Assembly: GCF_924101635.2 (NCBI RefSeq)
Contig: NZ_CAKMAA020000096.1
Span: 1-37,740, forward strand
Direction: 5' to 3'
From: Candidatus Nitrotoga sp. HW29
GTDB lineage: Bacteria; Pseudomonadota; Gammaproteobacteria; Burkholderiales; Gallionellaceae
DNA length: 37,740 nt
Below the pieces are notes generated by a model that saw nothing but the letters and a program-made list of their open reading frames with translations, had not been told where the DNA came from and searched no databases. Each line of letters starts with the position of its first letter. The first letter of the stretch is position 1. This document shows, one piece after another, positions 3,730 through 13,493 of the stretch. Both the position numbers and the translations under genes were made by a program.

Positions 3730-3770
3730 TACCAAATACGGTCTGGTTTATTATAGCGGCCTTTGGTATA
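3730..3770. promoter_or_regulatory. Inverted repeat overlapping the PepSY operon promoter
   Basis: ATACCAAA at 3730-3737 is the exact reverse complement of TTTGGTAT at 3763-3770. The right arm covers the extended -10 region of the promoter and the left arm lies near the -40 position. The spacing of 33 bases between equivalent points is about three helical turns. It may be a repressor site or simply a hairpin-forming pair. Confidence 0.4.
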
Positions 3771-3773
3771 ATG
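3765..3773 (+). promoter_or_regulatory. Extended -10 promoter of the PepSY/flavin operon
   Basis: TGGTATAAT at 3765-3773 is a perfect extended -10 element (TGn plus TATAAT) for a sigma70-type promoter. The -35 region is poor (TGGTTT about 17 bases upstream), as is common when the -10 is extended. Transcription would begin near 3780, leaving a leader of about 43 bases before the ATG at 3823. Confidence 0.6.
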
Positions 3774-3822
3774 CGATTGGTTCTCACTAGCATCAAAAAT
3801 TAAAGTTTCTTTACAAGATTTA

Positions 3823-4449
3823 ATGCAAAAATTACCTGCGCAGCAGAAGCGCGCTTTCTGGCTTCGCCAACTTTATCTATGGCATTGGATCAGTTCTGCT
3901 GGATGTTTGGTGGGTATGCTGCTTTTTGCGGTAACCGGACTCACGCTTAATAATGCCAGTCATATTGAGGCGAAACCAATAGTCAAGAAGTCAACGATTG
4001 TTTTGCCCTCATCACTGTTGATGTATTTAAAAGCTCAGCCCCTTAGCAATAAAGCATCATTACCGCTTGCAGTGGCGGATTGGCTGATGAGTAGTATGGA
4101 TGTTGATGCCGCTGACAAACCAGCAGAGTGGTCGGCAGAAGAGGTTTATGTTTCGTTGCCACGTCCTGGTGGCGATGCTTGGCTGAGCATAAACCGTGAG
4201 AGCGGTGAGATGGATTATGAGATTACCAATCGCGGTTGGATTTCTTACCTGAATGACCTGCATAAAGGCCGCAATACAGGTACGGCCTGGAGCTGGTTTC
4301 TGGATGTCTTTTCATTCATGGCGCTGGTGTTCAGTCTGACAGGTTTATGTCTACTTTACATGCATTCAGCCAATCGCCCATCTACTTGGCCGTTAGTGGG
4401 CATAGGAGTAGTAATACCATTAGTGCTGGCCATTTTGTTTATTCATTAG
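3823..4449 (+). CDS. PepSY-associated TM-helix membrane protein
   Basis: This 208-residue inner-membrane protein opens the flavin operon. Membrane segments are predicted at about 22-43, 158-180 and 187-207, with a periplasmic domain of about 110 residues between the first two. The pattern fits the PepSY-associated TM family found beside iron-uptake and reductase genes. H21 near the first segment, and H147 in DLHKG before the second, are possible heme or metal ligands, as in PepSY/MsrQ-like membrane electron carriers. That role is inference. The ribosome site is weak. The downstream DUF2271, DUF4198, ApbE and flavodoxin-reductase genes are co-directional with short gaps, so this protein is probably the membrane component of their shared redox module. 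Confidence 0.75.
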   Translation: MQKLPAQQKRAFWLRQLYLWHWISSAGCLVGMLLFAVTGLTLNNASHIEAKPIVKKSTIVLPSSLLMYLKAQPLSNKASLPLAVADWLMSSMDVDAADKPAEWSAEEVYVSLPRPGGDAWLSINRESGEMDYEITNRGWISYLNDLHKGRNTGTAWSWFLDVFSFMALVFSLTGLCLLYMHSANRPSTWPLVGIGVVIPLVLAILFIH

Positions 4450-4509
4450 CGAGCAGAGGATAGTTTAAATTCGCTGTTCATTATTAATATTCTTACAGGG
4501 AGTTGATAT

Positions 4510-5028
4510 ATGCGTAACTGGGTTCCCCGATTGATACCGTCGTTGGTGGCTGGCTTGTTCGCCCATCAGGGCGTCGCTGCTGAACTGAATGTCAAGGTAG
4601 CAATACCACAAATCAATACTTCGGAATATCACCGTCCCTATGTGGCGATATGGGTTGAAAAGCCCGATCAAAGTATCGCGAAAAATTTGGCCGTCTGGTA
4701 TAGCCAAAAATCCGGAGCAGAAGGACCGGGAACAAAATGGTTAAAAGATCTCCGACAATGGTGGCGTAAAGGTGGGCGTGATATTCAGATGCCGATGGAT
4801 GGTTTATCTGGCGCAACACGGCCGGTTGGAGATCAGAGTCTAAGTTATAACGATAGCAAATCACCTTTGGCACCGGGCGAATATCGACTGGTGGTGGAAA
4901 CGGCACGCGAAAAAGGTGGCCGCGAATTAGTGCGCATCCCTTTTAGCTTGCCCGTCAAAAAAGCAGAGACTCAAAAAGCGAGCGGGCAGGTGGAGCTAGG
5001 TACCGTTAATCTTGAAATCAAGCCTTAA
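4510..5028 (+). CDS. Exported DUF2271 protein, probable ApbE flavinylation substrate
   Basis: The 172-residue product begins with a Sec-type signal peptide (cleavage probably after GVAA, residue 24) and then a compact beta-rich DUF2271 domain to about residue 150. DGLSGAT at 97-103 matches the Dxx[S/T]GA[T/S] signature to which ApbE enzymes attach FMN, with T103 the expected attachment site. The motif is visible directly, but modification is inferred. An apbE gene lies two genes downstream. A good GGGAG ribosome site precedes the ATG. It sits between the PepSY membrane gene and the DUF4198 gene and would be a periplasmic FMN-carrying electron carrier. The C-terminal tail after 150 is Lys/Glu-rich and may be flexible. 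Confidence 0.8.
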   Translation: MRNWVPRLIPSLVAGLFAHQGVAAELNVKVAIPQINTSEYHRPYVAIWVEKPDQSIAKNLAVWYSQKSGAEGPGTKWLKDLRQWWRKGGRDIQMPMDGLSGATRPVGDQSLSYNDSKSPLAPGEYRLVVETAREKGGRELVRIPFSLPVKKAETQKASGQVELGTVNLEIKP

Positions 5029-5054
5029 ATCTTTATTCCTGACTGGAGACTTCC

Positions 5055-5870
5055 ATGTACAAACCATTTAAATATGCCTTACTGTCAACTGGCTTTGCGA
5101 TTCTTTCCGGACTGACTTCTTTGCCGGCGCAGGCACATAACACATGGCTGCTGCCATCGAGCACCGTGCTATCGTCCCCACAATTTGTCACGTTTGATGC
5201 AGCGGTTTCCGAGGATTTTTTTTACTTCACGCATCGCCCTTTACCCATAGATGCCCTTACTATCACTGCGCCTGACGGTCACAACCTGGTTCCCGCTAAT
5301 GTTGGTAAAGGTGAATTACGCACGGTGTTTGACGTCAAGCTTGAGAAAAACGGTACTTATACATTAGATATTTCGCGTAGCGGCCTGCGAGCCAGCTGGA
5401 AAGTTGATGGTAAACCCAAACGCTTCATGGGGAACGCGGAAGCATTCGCCAAGGAGGTGCCTGTAACCGCGCAGGATTTGGAAATTGGCGAATCCGTGGC
5501 GCATGTCGTCACCTTCGTGACGGTTGGCGCCCCTACAGCAGTCAAACTAACTAACCATGGGTTGGAATTGGTGCCCGTTACGCATCCGAATGATCTTAAT
5601 GTTGGGGAGCCAGCGGAATTCCAGTTTATGGTAGATGGCAAGCCCGCTGCTGATGTTAAAGTCGAAGTAGTGAGTGGCCAAAGTCACTATCGCAATGCGC
5701 TGGGTGAAGCCAAGTATACATCCGATAAACAGGGTAAAGTAAAAATTACCTGGCCGCAGCCTGGTATGTACTTCCTTAATGCTGTGCTCAAGGATAATAA
5801 AGTAAGTGCAAAGCAAGCCAAGGAGCGTAGCCTCTCCTATAGCGTTACTTTGGAAGTGCAAGTGCAATAA
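5055..5870 (+). CDS. Exported DUF4198 (NikM-like) protein
   Basis: This 271-residue periplasmic protein has a clear signal peptide (hydrophobic core about 8-22, cleavage after AQA at 27). The mature protein starts HNTWLLP. A histidine at the extreme N-terminus is typical of the DUF4198/NikM-like group and suggests metal binding, in a way comparable to copper-binding histidine brace or ATCUN ends. Two beta-sandwich domains follow (about 28-160 and 170-270, the second Ig-like with the PAEFQFMVDGKPA repeat type). GGAG lies upstream of the ATG. The function in this operon is not established. Co-occurrence with PepSY, DUF2271 and ApbE genes points to metal or redox handling in the periplasm. It ends 2 bases before apbE. 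Confidence 0.75.
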   Translation: MYKPFKYALLSTGFAILSGLTSLPAQAHNTWLLPSSTVLSSPQFVTFDAAVSEDFFYFTHRPLPIDALTITAPDGHNLVPANVGKGELRTVFDVKLEKNGTYTLDISRSGLRASWKVDGKPKRFMGNAEAFAKEVPVTAQDLEIGESVAHVVTFVTVGAPTAVKLTNHGLELVPVTHPNDLNVGEPAEFQFMVDGKPAADVKVEVVSGQSHYRNALGEAKYTSDKQGKVKITWPQPGMYFLNAVLKDNKVSAKQAKERSLSYSVTLEVQVQ

Positions 5871-5872
5871 TC

Positions 5873-6877
5873 TTGTCGCAACGCAGAGTTATTATTCCGC
5901 CGCAACTGACTGAGTTACCGACTCGCCTGCCAACCGGAAAAGTGCTTGATGTGTCCGGGAAGGCGATGGGCACATACTGGACCGTCAAGTGGGTGAATGA
6001 AGGCGGTGCCAGTCCTGAATCGCTGATTAGCCGGATCGAGCATGTTATTGCGCGAGTCATTGATGAAATGAGCACCTGGCAAGAGAATGCTTTTATCAGC
6101 CGTTTCAATAGTGCTCCGGCTAACAGCGATTTTGCTCTCCCAGTCTGTTTCGCTCAAGTGCTGGAATGTGCGATGCAACTTGCTGCGGATACTGACGGCG
6201 CGTTCGATCCTACCGTCGGGCCTCTTGTGAATCTTTGGGGTTTTGGCCCTGATCGTCCTATTACAGAGCCGCCTGCGCAGACAGATATTGCTGCTGCGCA
6301 AACATTGTGCGGATGGCGCCGTATCATTGTGAAAGAGGGCTATATCTGCCAGCCGGGTGGGCTTTATCTGGACTTTTCTGGTATTGCCAAAGGATACAGC
6401 GTTGATCTGATTGCGGACAGTTTGCGCGGCCAGGGGGTACGTAATTTTCTGGTGGAAGTGGGGGGGGAGCTTTCTGGTAGCGGCATAAAGCCGGACGGGC
6501 AGCCATGGTGGGTCGCACTGGAAACGACGGAATTGCAGGGACAAGTTCAGCAATCAATTGTCGCGTTGTACGGATTAGCGGTCGCAACGTCAGGTGACTA
6601 TCGTCGTTATTTTGATCACCAGAACATTCGTTACTCGCATACCATTGACCCGCGTACAGGCTATCCTGTAGCCGATGCACCGTTTGCGGTCAGCGTATTG
6701 CATCGTTCTTGTATGCACGCCGATGCACTAGCAACGGCGCTGACTGTATTGGGTGTGCAGGCGGGACTAAAATATGCAGAAAATCGCCATGTTGCAGCCA
6801 TATTTACCCAAATGGAGTCGGGTAAAGCGGTGCAGTATCTTTCTCCGGCAATGCTGGAGATGGTAGAGGAAATCTGA
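5873..6877 (+). CDS. apbE: FAD:protein FMN transferase (ApbE family)
   Basis: ApbE transfers FMN from FAD to a Ser/Thr of a target protein. The 334-residue product shows AMGTYW at 31-36, GAFDPTVGPL at 109-118, DFSGIAKGYSVD at 167-178, VGGELSGSG at 196-204, SGDYRRYF at 240-247, HTIDPRTG at 256-263 and the metal-binding ADALATAL at 283-290. The start is a TTG only 2 bases after the previous stop, and no better start is available because an in-frame stop lies at 5840-5842. No signal peptide or lipobox is visible, which is unusual since the likely substrate (DUF2271) is exported. Either the enzyme works in the cytoplasm or export is by an unseen route. It overlaps the reductase gene by one base. 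Confidence 0.92.
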   Translation: MSQRRVIIPPQLTELPTRLPTGKVLDVSGKAMGTYWTVKWVNEGGASPESLISRIEHVIARVIDEMSTWQENAFISRFNSAPANSDFALPVCFAQVLECAMQLAADTDGAFDPTVGPLVNLWGFGPDRPITEPPAQTDIAAAQTLCGWRRIIVKEGYICQPGGLYLDFSGIAKGYSVDLIADSLRGQGVRNFLVEVGGELSGSGIKPDGQPWWVALETTELQGQVQQSIVALYGLAVATSGDYRRYFDHQNIRYSHTIDPRTGYPVADAPFAVSVLHRSCMHADALATALTVLGVQAGLKYAENRHVAAIFTQMESGKAVQYLSPAMLEMVEEI

Positions 6878-8373
6878 TGAACAGGATGATCCTTGCCGGG
6901 CTCATTATCTTTGTTTATGTGGCTTTGAGTGCATGGGTGATTCGCCGACATCGCAAAAAACGATTGGTATTTCAAGGAACGGAGCGAGCAGATGTGTTGC
7001 TGGCTTTTGCCAGCCAAACGGGGCATGCAGAACAACTGGCCGAGCTTACCTCGAAGATGCTGCTTGTTGCGGGGTTGCCGGTACAGGTTAAGCCTTTATC
7101 CGTAGTGACGACTCAAATGCTATCCACTTTTCGTCGTGTATTGTTTGTCGTCAGTACCACTGGTGAAGGTGATGCGCCCGATAATGCGGTAGATTTCGTG
7201 CATGCTGAAATGCATGGAATGCGTAGGCTTGATACGCTTGAATATGGCTTGCTGGCCTTAGGTGATCGACGTTATAGCAATTTTTGTGGTTTTGGTCACA
7301 TGCTGGATATCTGGTTGCAACAATCCCAAGCATTGCCGCTATTTGACATGGTAGAAGTGGATGATGGCGATGCAGGCGCGCTACGTCATTGGCAGTCACA
7401 ATTAGGTCTGTTAACGGGATCGACCGCAACGACTGACTGGAATACCCCGATATACCAATCCTGGCGTCTCAAAGATCGCCAGCTTTTAAATCCAGGCAGC
7501 GCAGGAGAGGCGGTATATCATCTAAAATTGGAAGCTTTGCAGTCCAACGAGAGTTGGCAGGCTGGCGATATTGCTGAAATTGGCCCGCGTAATTCTTCTG
7601 AGGCAATCACGAGCTTGTTAAGCGTGTTGGGATTGGAGGCCGAAGCTGTTGCCAATGACTATGGGGCAACTTTACGTCAATGCCTGGCTGACCGGTTACT
7701 TCCATCCAGTATTGCTGACATCGGTGCATTGCGAGATTTATCGCCTAAGGCGCTGGTGGCAGTATTGAAACCGCTTTCACACCGTGAGTACTCCATCGCT
7801 TCACTGCCGGATGAAGGACTTGAACTCGTCGTTCGTCAATTCCGCCATGAAAATGGGCAGCTAGGACATGGCTCGGGGTGGCTGACAGAATATGCGAAGA
7901 TTGGAGATGAAGTCGCCTTGCGCGTGCGGCGGAACATTGCATTTCATGCGCCTGCAAATGCGACACCGCTGATACTCATTGGTAGCGGTACCGGCATCGC
8001 AGGTTTACGTGCGCACCTAAAAGCCAGTATAGGGGCTGGCCAGCACCGTCATTGGCTGTTTTTTGGCGAACGCAATAAAGCGCACGATGATTATTTTGGC
8101 AGTGAGTTGAAAGTGTGGCATCAACAAGGCGTATTGACCCGATTGGATATTGCATGGTCTCGCGATCAAGATAAGCCGATTTACGTTCAGGATATGATCC
8201 GTAACGCAGTGAATGAATTGCGTATGTGGTTGCATGACGGCGCTACTATCCTGGTTTGCGGTAGTGCCAACAGAATGGCCCCTGCTGTGCATCATGCGTT
8301 GGTTGAGATCATGGGAGATCAGGCAATGGCCACATTAGCGGCTAGCGGGCGATATCGGAGAGATGTTTATTAG
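6877..8373 (+). CDS. Membrane-anchored flavodoxin/NADPH reductase (CysJ/P450-reductase-like)
   Basis: This 498-residue diflavin reductase has an N-terminal membrane anchor at about 4-22 followed by basic residues that place the catalytic part in the cytoplasm. A flavodoxin FMN domain covers about 38-178, with SQTGHAEQL at 46-54, STTGEGDAPDNA at 93-104 and LALGDRRYSNF at 126-136. The FNR-type FAD/NADPH module covers about 190-498, with REYS at 303-306 (FAD), GSGTGIAGLR at 369-378, CGSANRM at 461-467 and the terminal GRYRRDVY. It should take electrons from NADPH through FAD and FMN. Its partner is probably the PepSY membrane protein rather than sulfite reductase, since no cysI is present. It ends the operon. 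Confidence 0.88.
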   Translation: MNRMILAGLIIFVYVALSAWVIRRHRKKRLVFQGTERADVLLAFASQTGHAEQLAELTSKMLLVAGLPVQVKPLSVVTTQMLSTFRRVLFVVSTTGEGDAPDNAVDFVHAEMHGMRRLDTLEYGLLALGDRRYSNFCGFGHMLDIWLQQSQALPLFDMVEVDDGDAGALRHWQSQLGLLTGSTATTDWNTPIYQSWRLKDRQLLNPGSAGEAVYHLKLEALQSNESWQAGDIAEIGPRNSSEAITSLLSVLGLEAEAVANDYGATLRQCLADRLLPSSIADIGALRDLSPKALVAVLKPLSHREYSIASLPDEGLELVVRQFRHENGQLGHGSGWLTEYAKIGDEVALRVRRNIAFHAPANATPLILIGSGTGIAGLRAHLKASIGAGQHRHWLFFGERNKAHDDYFGSELKVWHQQGVLTRLDIAWSRDQDKPIYVQDMIRNAVNELRMWLHDGATILVCGSANRMAPAVHHALVEIMGDQAMATLAASGRYRRDVY

Positions 8374-12492: not shown

Positions 12493-13131
12493 ATGGAAAA
12501 TATTAACAGCGTATCTGACAGTTCTCGTCGCACAGTCCTTAAAACGGGCATTGCCATAAGTGCGCTCGCTGCGCTTAGTTTAACCACTCTCAATAGCGCA
12601 AATGCGAATACGGGTAGTGATACTAAACACGATATGGCCATTTTAAATGCAGCCTTGGACCTTGAAAATCAAGCAATTTGGGCGTATGGCGTGGCAGCAG
12701 AAAAGTTGAGCGGGACCAAGGTGGGAAATGTTATCAAGGCCTTGGCGCTGCGTAATCAGGCTGATCACATTAAACATCGGGATATCTTCATATCCACGAT
12801 TAAAAGCCTGGGCGGGACACCAGTTAATACAAAAGGAGCGTACGATCTTTCTGCTTATATCAAGGCAGGGGAGGGTAATCTTGATAGTGACGCCAATATC
12901 GCTAAGCTGGCACTGGCACTAGAAGTAGATGCGGTGCTTGCTTACGCCAGTGCCGTCGGTAAACTGCGTACCCCCGCGTTGGTTGCTGCCGGACTGACTA
13001 TCTTGCCAGATGAGTCAGCACATGCCGCAGCAATTCGTGCGGTGTTTGGTGCGCTTGATTCGACGGTCCATGCCGTACCAGCTGCTCAACTTAGCAAAGA
13101 AACTCGCAGCCAGTGGATACTGGCCGTGTAA
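12493..13131 (+). CDS. Tat-exported ferritin-like (DUF4439-type) protein
   Basis: The 212-residue product starts with a twin-arginine signal, SRRTVLK at 11-17, then a hydrophobic stretch to about 32 and a likely cleavage after ANA near 38. The mature part is a four-helix ferritin-like domain. Candidate di-metal ligands are E58 in helix 1, D91/H92/H95 in helix 2 (ADHIKHRD), E144 in helix 3 and E174/H177 in helix 4 (ExxH). The Tat signal fits a protein folded with its metal before export. The exact reaction is unknown. It could oxidise or store iron, or consume peroxide, in the periplasm. AGGAG at 12482-12486 supports the start. The cupredoxin gene begins about 15 bases after its stop, so the two probably act together. 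Confidence 0.8.
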   Translation: MENINSVSDSSRRTVLKTGIAISALAALSLTTLNSANANTGSDTKHDMAILNAALDLENQAIWAYGVAAEKLSGTKVGNVIKALALRNQADHIKHRDIFISTIKSLGGTPVNTKGAYDLSAYIKAGEGNLDSDANIAKLALALEVDAVLAYASAVGKLRTPALVAAGLTILPDESAHAAAIRAVFGALDSTVHAVPAAQLSKETRSQWILAV

Positions 13132-13148
13132 TCAGCAAGGCGTGTATG

Positions 13149-13493
13149 ATGAAGCTATCTCATACGTTACTTATGTGGATGTATTTGGGAGTGTCAGCTG
13201 CTTCCAATAATGCAAATGGGGAACTCCATGCTAGCAAGATTCCCATTACGGTTACGATTGATGCTTTTCAATTTCAACCCGATAAGATACGGATAAAACG
13301 TGGGCAAAGCGTCATTTTTATTAACAAGGATGAAGTTCCGCATACGGTGACGCCTGATAAAAATAGTCACTTTGTTCCCTCTGGCATTATAAAAGGTGGT
13401 GAACAACATGAAGTGTTTTTTGAATCAGCGGGAGTGCAGAGTTATTCGTGTGATTTTCATCCCAGTATGCGTGGGCGAGTGATTGTAAAATAA
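13149..13493 (+). CDS. Small exported cupredoxin (plastocyanin/amicyanin-like)
   Basis: This short blue-copper protein has a signal sequence (hydrophobic about 5-18) followed by one cupredoxin domain. Numbered from the ATG at 13149, type-1 copper ligands are visible as H65 (VPHTVTP), C101, H104 and M107 (CDFHPSM), the canonical C-X2-H-X2-M loop. The product is about 114 residues. An adjacent ATG at 13146 is an alternative start, and AAGG at 13137-13140 serves both. It would carry single electrons in the periplasm. It directly follows the ferritin-like gene and presumably exchanges electrons with it or with a terminal oxidase. The partner is inferred from position only. Confidence 0.87.
   Translation: MKLSHTLLMWMYLGVSAASNNANGELHASKIPITVTIDAFQFQPDKIRIKRGQSVIFINKDEVPHTVTPDKNSHFVPSGIIKGGEQHEVFFESAGVQSYSCDFHPSMRGRVIVK

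Follow-up and report, generated by a model that had tools for sequence, protein, structure and literature searches.

What does the five-gene cassette at positions 3823–8373 of the Candidatus Nitrotoga sp. HW29 contig NZ_CAKMAA020000096.1 reduce, and on which side of the membrane is its flavin carrier loaded? The window analyzed, the first 37,740 nucleotides of this contig, carries all five genes on the forward (+) strand at tight spacing. They encode a PepSY_TM_like_2 membrane protein (3823–4449; Pfam PF16357, E-value 1.7e-82), a DUF2271 protein with a Sec-type leader (4510–5028; PF10029, 3e-47), a predicted periplasmic DUF4198 protein (5055–5870; PF10670, 5e-52), an ApbE flavin mononucleotide (FMN) transferase (5873–6877; full-length match to PF02424, 6.9e-82), and a CysJ-like diflavin reductase (6877–8373) in which an N-terminal membrane anchor precedes flavodoxin, flavin adenine dinucleotide (FAD), and NADP domains (PF00258, PF00667, and PF00175). 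An earlier note on this DNA had listed these five co-directional genes, and the positions of the open reading frames (ORFs) and the Pfam matches bear it out. We propose that the cassette is probably an iron-limitation-type operon that passes electrons from NADPH across the inner membrane to a periplasmic ferric complex.

The operon is of a known kind, since both its gene order and its content match described systems. In the published gene table, CC3059–CC3063 of Caulobacter crescentus (CCNA_03155–03159) matches the window cassette gene for gene along its length: transporter, DUF2271, DUF4198, ApbE, and sulfite reductase flavoprotein. A PepSY-like flavinylation cluster has a PF03929 or PF16357 gene beside an ApbE, DUF2271, or FMN-binding gene and at least one target with a signal peptide; the window has PF16357 next to ApbE and DUF2271, and the DUF2271 leader is evident by eye and by hydropathy score. 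In the data presented by Meheust et al. (2021), 2833 of 3220 PepSY-like clusters include DUF2271 and 1500 include DUF4198, and the window shares with these systems a PF16357 PepSY protein of three transmembrane (TM) helices, DUF2271, DUF4198, and ApbE; 1077 of their PepSY genes have their own NAD-binding domain, whereas the window reductase is a separate gene (PMC8238504). The window cassette thus adds a member in another bacterial group, confirming there an iron-starvation reductase module whose parts have so far been studied piecemeal.

Conservation of the five genes together, on which the earlier note had staked its proposal, is extensive. Among the best 80 of 559 confirmed relatives, near relatives that include many Xanthomonadaceae, 76 keep the full order, so the order is not due to chance. 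The other four are three operons without ApbE (L090, L137, and L144) and one that ends at a contig edge with three genes visible (L147). Gene order is identical in all four same-genus cassette loci (our own and those of G055, G026, and G064). We also compared ten loci outside the genus (L037–L046); L047 and L048, fetched on PF10029 hits, have no DUF2271 resembling that of the window and were left out of the order and receptor counts. DUF2271 scores above the cut-off in 4/19 genus, 4/150 family, and 13/369 class genomes, our own included each time.

In the proposed mechanism, the anchored reductase would oxidize NADPH on the cytosolic side. Electrons would then cross the inner membrane via two b-hemes, ligated by four histidines of PepSY (H21/H181 towards the cytosol, H147/H208 towards the periplasm), and arrive at FMN covalently linked to Thr103 of exported DUF2271. 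Flavinylated DUF2271 would hand them to a periplasmic ferric complex, and DUF4198 may hold or hand on metal. Several features are consistent with this path. Hydropathy reveals three TM-like segments in PepSY and the N-terminal anchor in the reductase; the anchor passes the hydropathy score in 68/89 reductases. The four PepSY histidines are nearly invariant among 93 aligned sequences (H21, 92; H147, 93; H181, 90; the C-terminal H208, 91). The AlphaFold model contains three long helices (mean predicted local distance difference test score 91, predicted template modeling score 0.72), in which the pair H21 and H181 and the pair H147 and H208 would lie near opposite membrane faces. Conserved histidines on both faces, as assigned from the model helices, are also described for the PepSY_TM proteins FoxB, HiuB, and CrpH; they are heme ligands in the FoxB structure, and FoxB and HiuB are linked to ferrisiderophore reduction in the accounts available. 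The window protein differs in having three TM segments, and the C-terminal residue would serve as its last ligand. Searches of the PDB by sequence returned nothing significant for PepSY or DUF2271. In the reductase, S428, R429, Y436, V437, and Q438, which we take to be markers of NADPH use in CysJ, are kept in 87–88 of 89 proteins. The route from NADPH through reductase and PepSY to flavinylated DUF2271, as first suggested in the earlier note, is in keeping with the domain content, the residue conservation, and the published PepSY-like model; its direction is less firm, and we infer it together with heme binding and pairing, the ferric acceptor, and the site of flavinylation in the cell. DUF2271 flavinylation, Fur control, an effect on fitness in ethylenediaminetetraacetate (EDTA), and DUF4198 metal binding have been shown by others in homologues.

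The predicted FMN acceptor is Thr103 of the DGLSGAT motif (4798–4818, + strand), found at DUF2271 residues 97–103 as reported before; it conforms to the [S/T]GA[S/T] pattern of ApbE substrates with an acceptor Thr and is the sole match to that motif among the five proteins. A. ursilacus DUF2271 is flavinylated by ApbE at the motif Thr and loses the modification upon Thr-to-Ala substitution (PMC8238504, in the sections available). T103 is invariant in 94/94 aligned proteins. Its surroundings vary: [ST]GA[ST] in 55, GPT in 34, and other forms in 5, Thr being retained; even within this set of DUF2271 proteins, then, the published motif does not always hold. SGAT is replaced by TGPT in L037–L039 and by TQPT in L042. 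L046 (8591–10063) encodes a secreted protein in which a weak ApbE-like domain is fused to DUF2271; genes for a DUF4198 protein and a TonB receptor lie nearby. Twin-arginine (Tat) export of DUF2271 was considered and rejected: an RR pair lies near the leader in 19/94 proteins, the window's not included, and by eye none of these 19 shows a full Tat motif.

DUF4198 is predicted by homology to bind metal. Its model matches metal-bound IsDUF4198 (PDB 9GCB) and the structures of Zcp (9MHI–9MHO), at 15–16% sequence identity, and the conserved A25-x-A27 points to cleavage before His28 (codon 5136–5138), which would give the mature N-terminal His that, with the fold, marks metal-binding DUF4198 proteins. 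In IsDUF4198, for which a structure and Ni binding are described (PMC12537917, in the part available), His18 is the second ligand, whereas the next conserved histidines of the window protein are residues 33 and 150 of the mature chain.

Where, then, is FMN attached? The transferase assignment of the earlier note stands, and to it we add the absence of a leader. The window ApbE begins at a TTG codon; just 10 codons of open frame precede it, with nothing leader-like among them, and the signal peptide or lipoprotein leader of a conventional ApbE is not recognizable. Leaders were called from a hydropathy score (thresholds 1.8 and 1.6) and by eye, not with SignalP. The stricter threshold is passed by 3/87 operon ApbEs, 75/94 DUF2271, and 89/94 DUF4198 proteins, the relaxed one by 8/87, 92/94, and 94/94. 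By eye, only L146 and L149 among the eight passing ApbEs have acceptable, lipoprotein-like leaders; the passing score of L150 comes from a start within the preceding gene, and those of L109, L155, L083, L138, and L084 reflect short proline-broken stretches of the type VLIPLSLSAPP. The ApbE of L042 (G373) reaches 1.54 from a far-upstream start. In our judgement, 85/87 operon ApbEs are leaderless; the score alone gives 79 to 84. The control set had 25 rows, ten of them second copies of operon ApbEs; among the 15 remaining, non-operon ApbEs from the same genomes, 12 pass the score, one (L161) looks like a lipoprotein by eye, and two (L180 and L181) lack a leader. The latter two (from G058 and G495) share an F-x-AMA start and may be cytosolic ApbEs. 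Operon ApbEs are not claimed as a clade: the best split separates 85/87 from the 15 controls, but its support is 0.04.

The operon ApbE is the only ApbE in its genome, where a search for alternative substrates with PF04205, a scope outside which NqrB/RnfD and DUF3570 lie, gave no FMN_bind match. In all, eight of the 15 genomes given both searches (our own, G055, G026, G064, G373, G423, G161, and G314) have the operon ApbE alone and no FMN_bind match, making the question testable on a single substrate. Among nine cassette-free genomes of the genus searched for ApbE, G008, G033, G039, and G047 have one leadered ApbE each, four yielded no ApbE, and G058 carries one leadered ApbE and one other. 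Thus, if DUF2271 is flavinylated in our genome, the available enzyme is predicted to be cytosolic, and the combination of a leaderless ApbE, an exported DUF2271, a single ApbE, and no FMN_bind match leads to the specific prediction of flavin attachment before export. We advance tentatively, as a proposal a little short of an even chance, that across this widespread operon family the leaderless ApbE attaches FMN to DUF2271 in the cytosol and Sec then exports the flavinylated precursor. Published coexpression of A. ursilacus DUF2271 and ApbE in E. coli used signal-peptide-truncated proteins, suggesting that the cytosol can support this reaction, although the cognate ApbE, called truncated, may have had a native leader (PMC8238504, sections available). 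A literature search, with the eLife supplement of signal-peptide predictions outside its scope, found no discussion of leaderless ApbEs in such operons, and a review, as far as available, describes cytosolic ApbE only for soluble fumarate reductase. Were cytosolic attachment correct, covalent flavin loading would precede export and be done by an enzyme family described mainly as periplasmic. Sec would pass a protein bearing covalent FMN, with a bearing on cofactor transit across membranes, and the chain would need no periplasmic FAD supply, with a bearing on where bacteria must export FAD.

An alternative that we consider unlikely, if the best of those weighed here, is that ApbE enters the periplasm by an unrecognized path and, like conventional lipoprotein ApbEs, attaches FMN to DUF2271 on that side of the membrane. 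The lipoprotein-like leaders of L146 and L149 and the Sec-type leader of the L046 fusion speak for it, as do the three operons that lack ApbE and a similar operon in G311, whose genome has one leadered ApbE elsewhere; according to the same review, cytosolically expressed Salmonella ApbE failed to replace the native enzyme. The window ApbE, however, has neither a leader-like stretch nor room for one, and no second ApbE exists in the genome to do its work.

For the acceptor, the regulation of related operons is informative. We scanned the upstream regions of the PepSY loci (93/93 kept, 60 shuffles each), scoring sites against what we take to be the Fur consensus. A Fur-like site with ≤2 mismatches is present at 57/93 loci, and the shuffle fraction is ≤0.05 at 64/93. 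In the window, a putative promoter (3767–3786, + strand) combines a −10 element TATAAT (3767–3772) with an overlapping weak Fur-like site, TGCGATTGGTTCTCA (3772–3786), ~50 bases upstream of the PepSY start. The position of the site is kept in 4/4 same-genus loci, and in the three congeners it has 2 mismatches and a shuffle fraction of 0.02–0.05. The Caulobacter operon has a Fur-bound promoter instead of a weak site: microarray, lacZ, and electrophoretic mobility shift data document direct Fur repression, and the tabulated induction of its genes by iron limitation or loss of fur ranges from 12- to 51-fold (PMC3751524, in the part available). The same operon has been named PepSY-like and has a fitness defect in EDTA (PMC12004947, in the part available). 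Because Fur-like sites precede PepSY in most relatives and the Caulobacter operon is under direct Fur control, ferric iron is, by analogy, the likeliest acceptor. The final acceptor, which the earlier note had left open among a ferric complex, copper, quinone, and damaged protein, is thus less open than that, even with a weak window site.

TonB-dependent receptors, searched with a profile built from six ORFs and counted if within 5 kb, accompany 44/80 best relatives, 8/10 of L037–L046, and 0/4 same-genus loci. The earlier statement that related operons usually sit with such receptors is therefore reasonable for near relatives but not for the wide survey, in which 231/3220 clusters have a so-called TonB receptor (PF03544; PMC8238504, sections available); its remark that this operon has none is correct. 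Receptor-less operons are common, as that survey and the four same-genus loci illustrate. Our genome has ten receptor matches, and each of the eight listed lies on a contig other than that of the window. Two of them, on contig 37, have a same-strand neighbor in a second, weaker PepSY_TM_like_2 gene (region 42659–48119), an arrangement that recurs in G055, G064, and G026.

Several observations weigh against ferric reduction by this cassette. With 3 mismatches, the Fur-like site of the window falls short of significance by itself (shuffle fraction 0.15); across the window, four matches occur at this level, a number that 13/100 shuffles reach, and in the whole genome a relaxed pattern gives 79 matches vs 51 for a reversed control, so single Fur-like sites carry little weight. 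The receptor profile matches nothing within the window, and a FeoB_C search that does match E. coli and Caulobacter finds nothing in our genome or the congeners G055, G026, and G064; no route for reduced iron into the cell is therefore evident. FoxB does not figure in the structural matches listed for the PepSY model, and outside the genus only 5/10 loci (L037–L046) keep the full gene order. Finally, the solved DUF4198 is stabilized most by Ni, and iron is not among the metals reported in the available part of that work (PMC12537917).

The DUF4198 results bear on a further, rather improbable alternative, in which the electrons go to a periplasmic substrate other than ferric iron: copper destined for oxidase assembly, or nickel or cobalt handled through DUF4198. 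Against it stand the place of the identical Caulobacter operon in the Fur regulon, the Fur-like sites of most relatives, and the receptors near 44/80 of them, though such receptors can import other metals. Least likely, and quite doubtful, is that the leaderless ApbE has its target in the cytosol and DUF2271 is a partner without flavin, as the 2/87 convincing ApbE leaders beside leadered DUF2271, the Klebsiella precedent of a cytosolic ApbE with a cytosolic target (cited in the available part of the review), and the 39/94 motif deviations might suggest, in the face of an invariant T103, a motif missing from the other four operon proteins, no FMN_bind match in the genome, and a homologous pair that works in E. 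coli without signal peptides (PMC8238504, sections available).

Both neighbors of the cassette are on the opposite strand; judged by recognition and not from a family search, the upstream one is presumably erpA-like and the downstream one mutY-like. In a test for an empty site, erpA was not found next to mutY in seven cassette-lacking stretches, two of them only ~2.8 kb long. The G+C fraction is 0.497 in the cassette vs 0.465 elsewhere in the window. On the ApbE tree, the window protein clusters first with its congeners; Methylobacillus joins next (support 0.74), followed by Methylovorus and Methylophilus (0.95), so we do not argue for a recent foreign origin; a mobile origin was set aside after megablast-level searches gave no plasmid match. 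The idea of the organism as an ammonia oxidizer was dropped, as neither the four genomes searched for AMO nor the control gave a match. Further along the window, at 12493–13493, by eye, a possibly ferritin-like exported protein (starting MENINSVSDSSRRTVLKTG) is followed by a small cupredoxin-looking protein.

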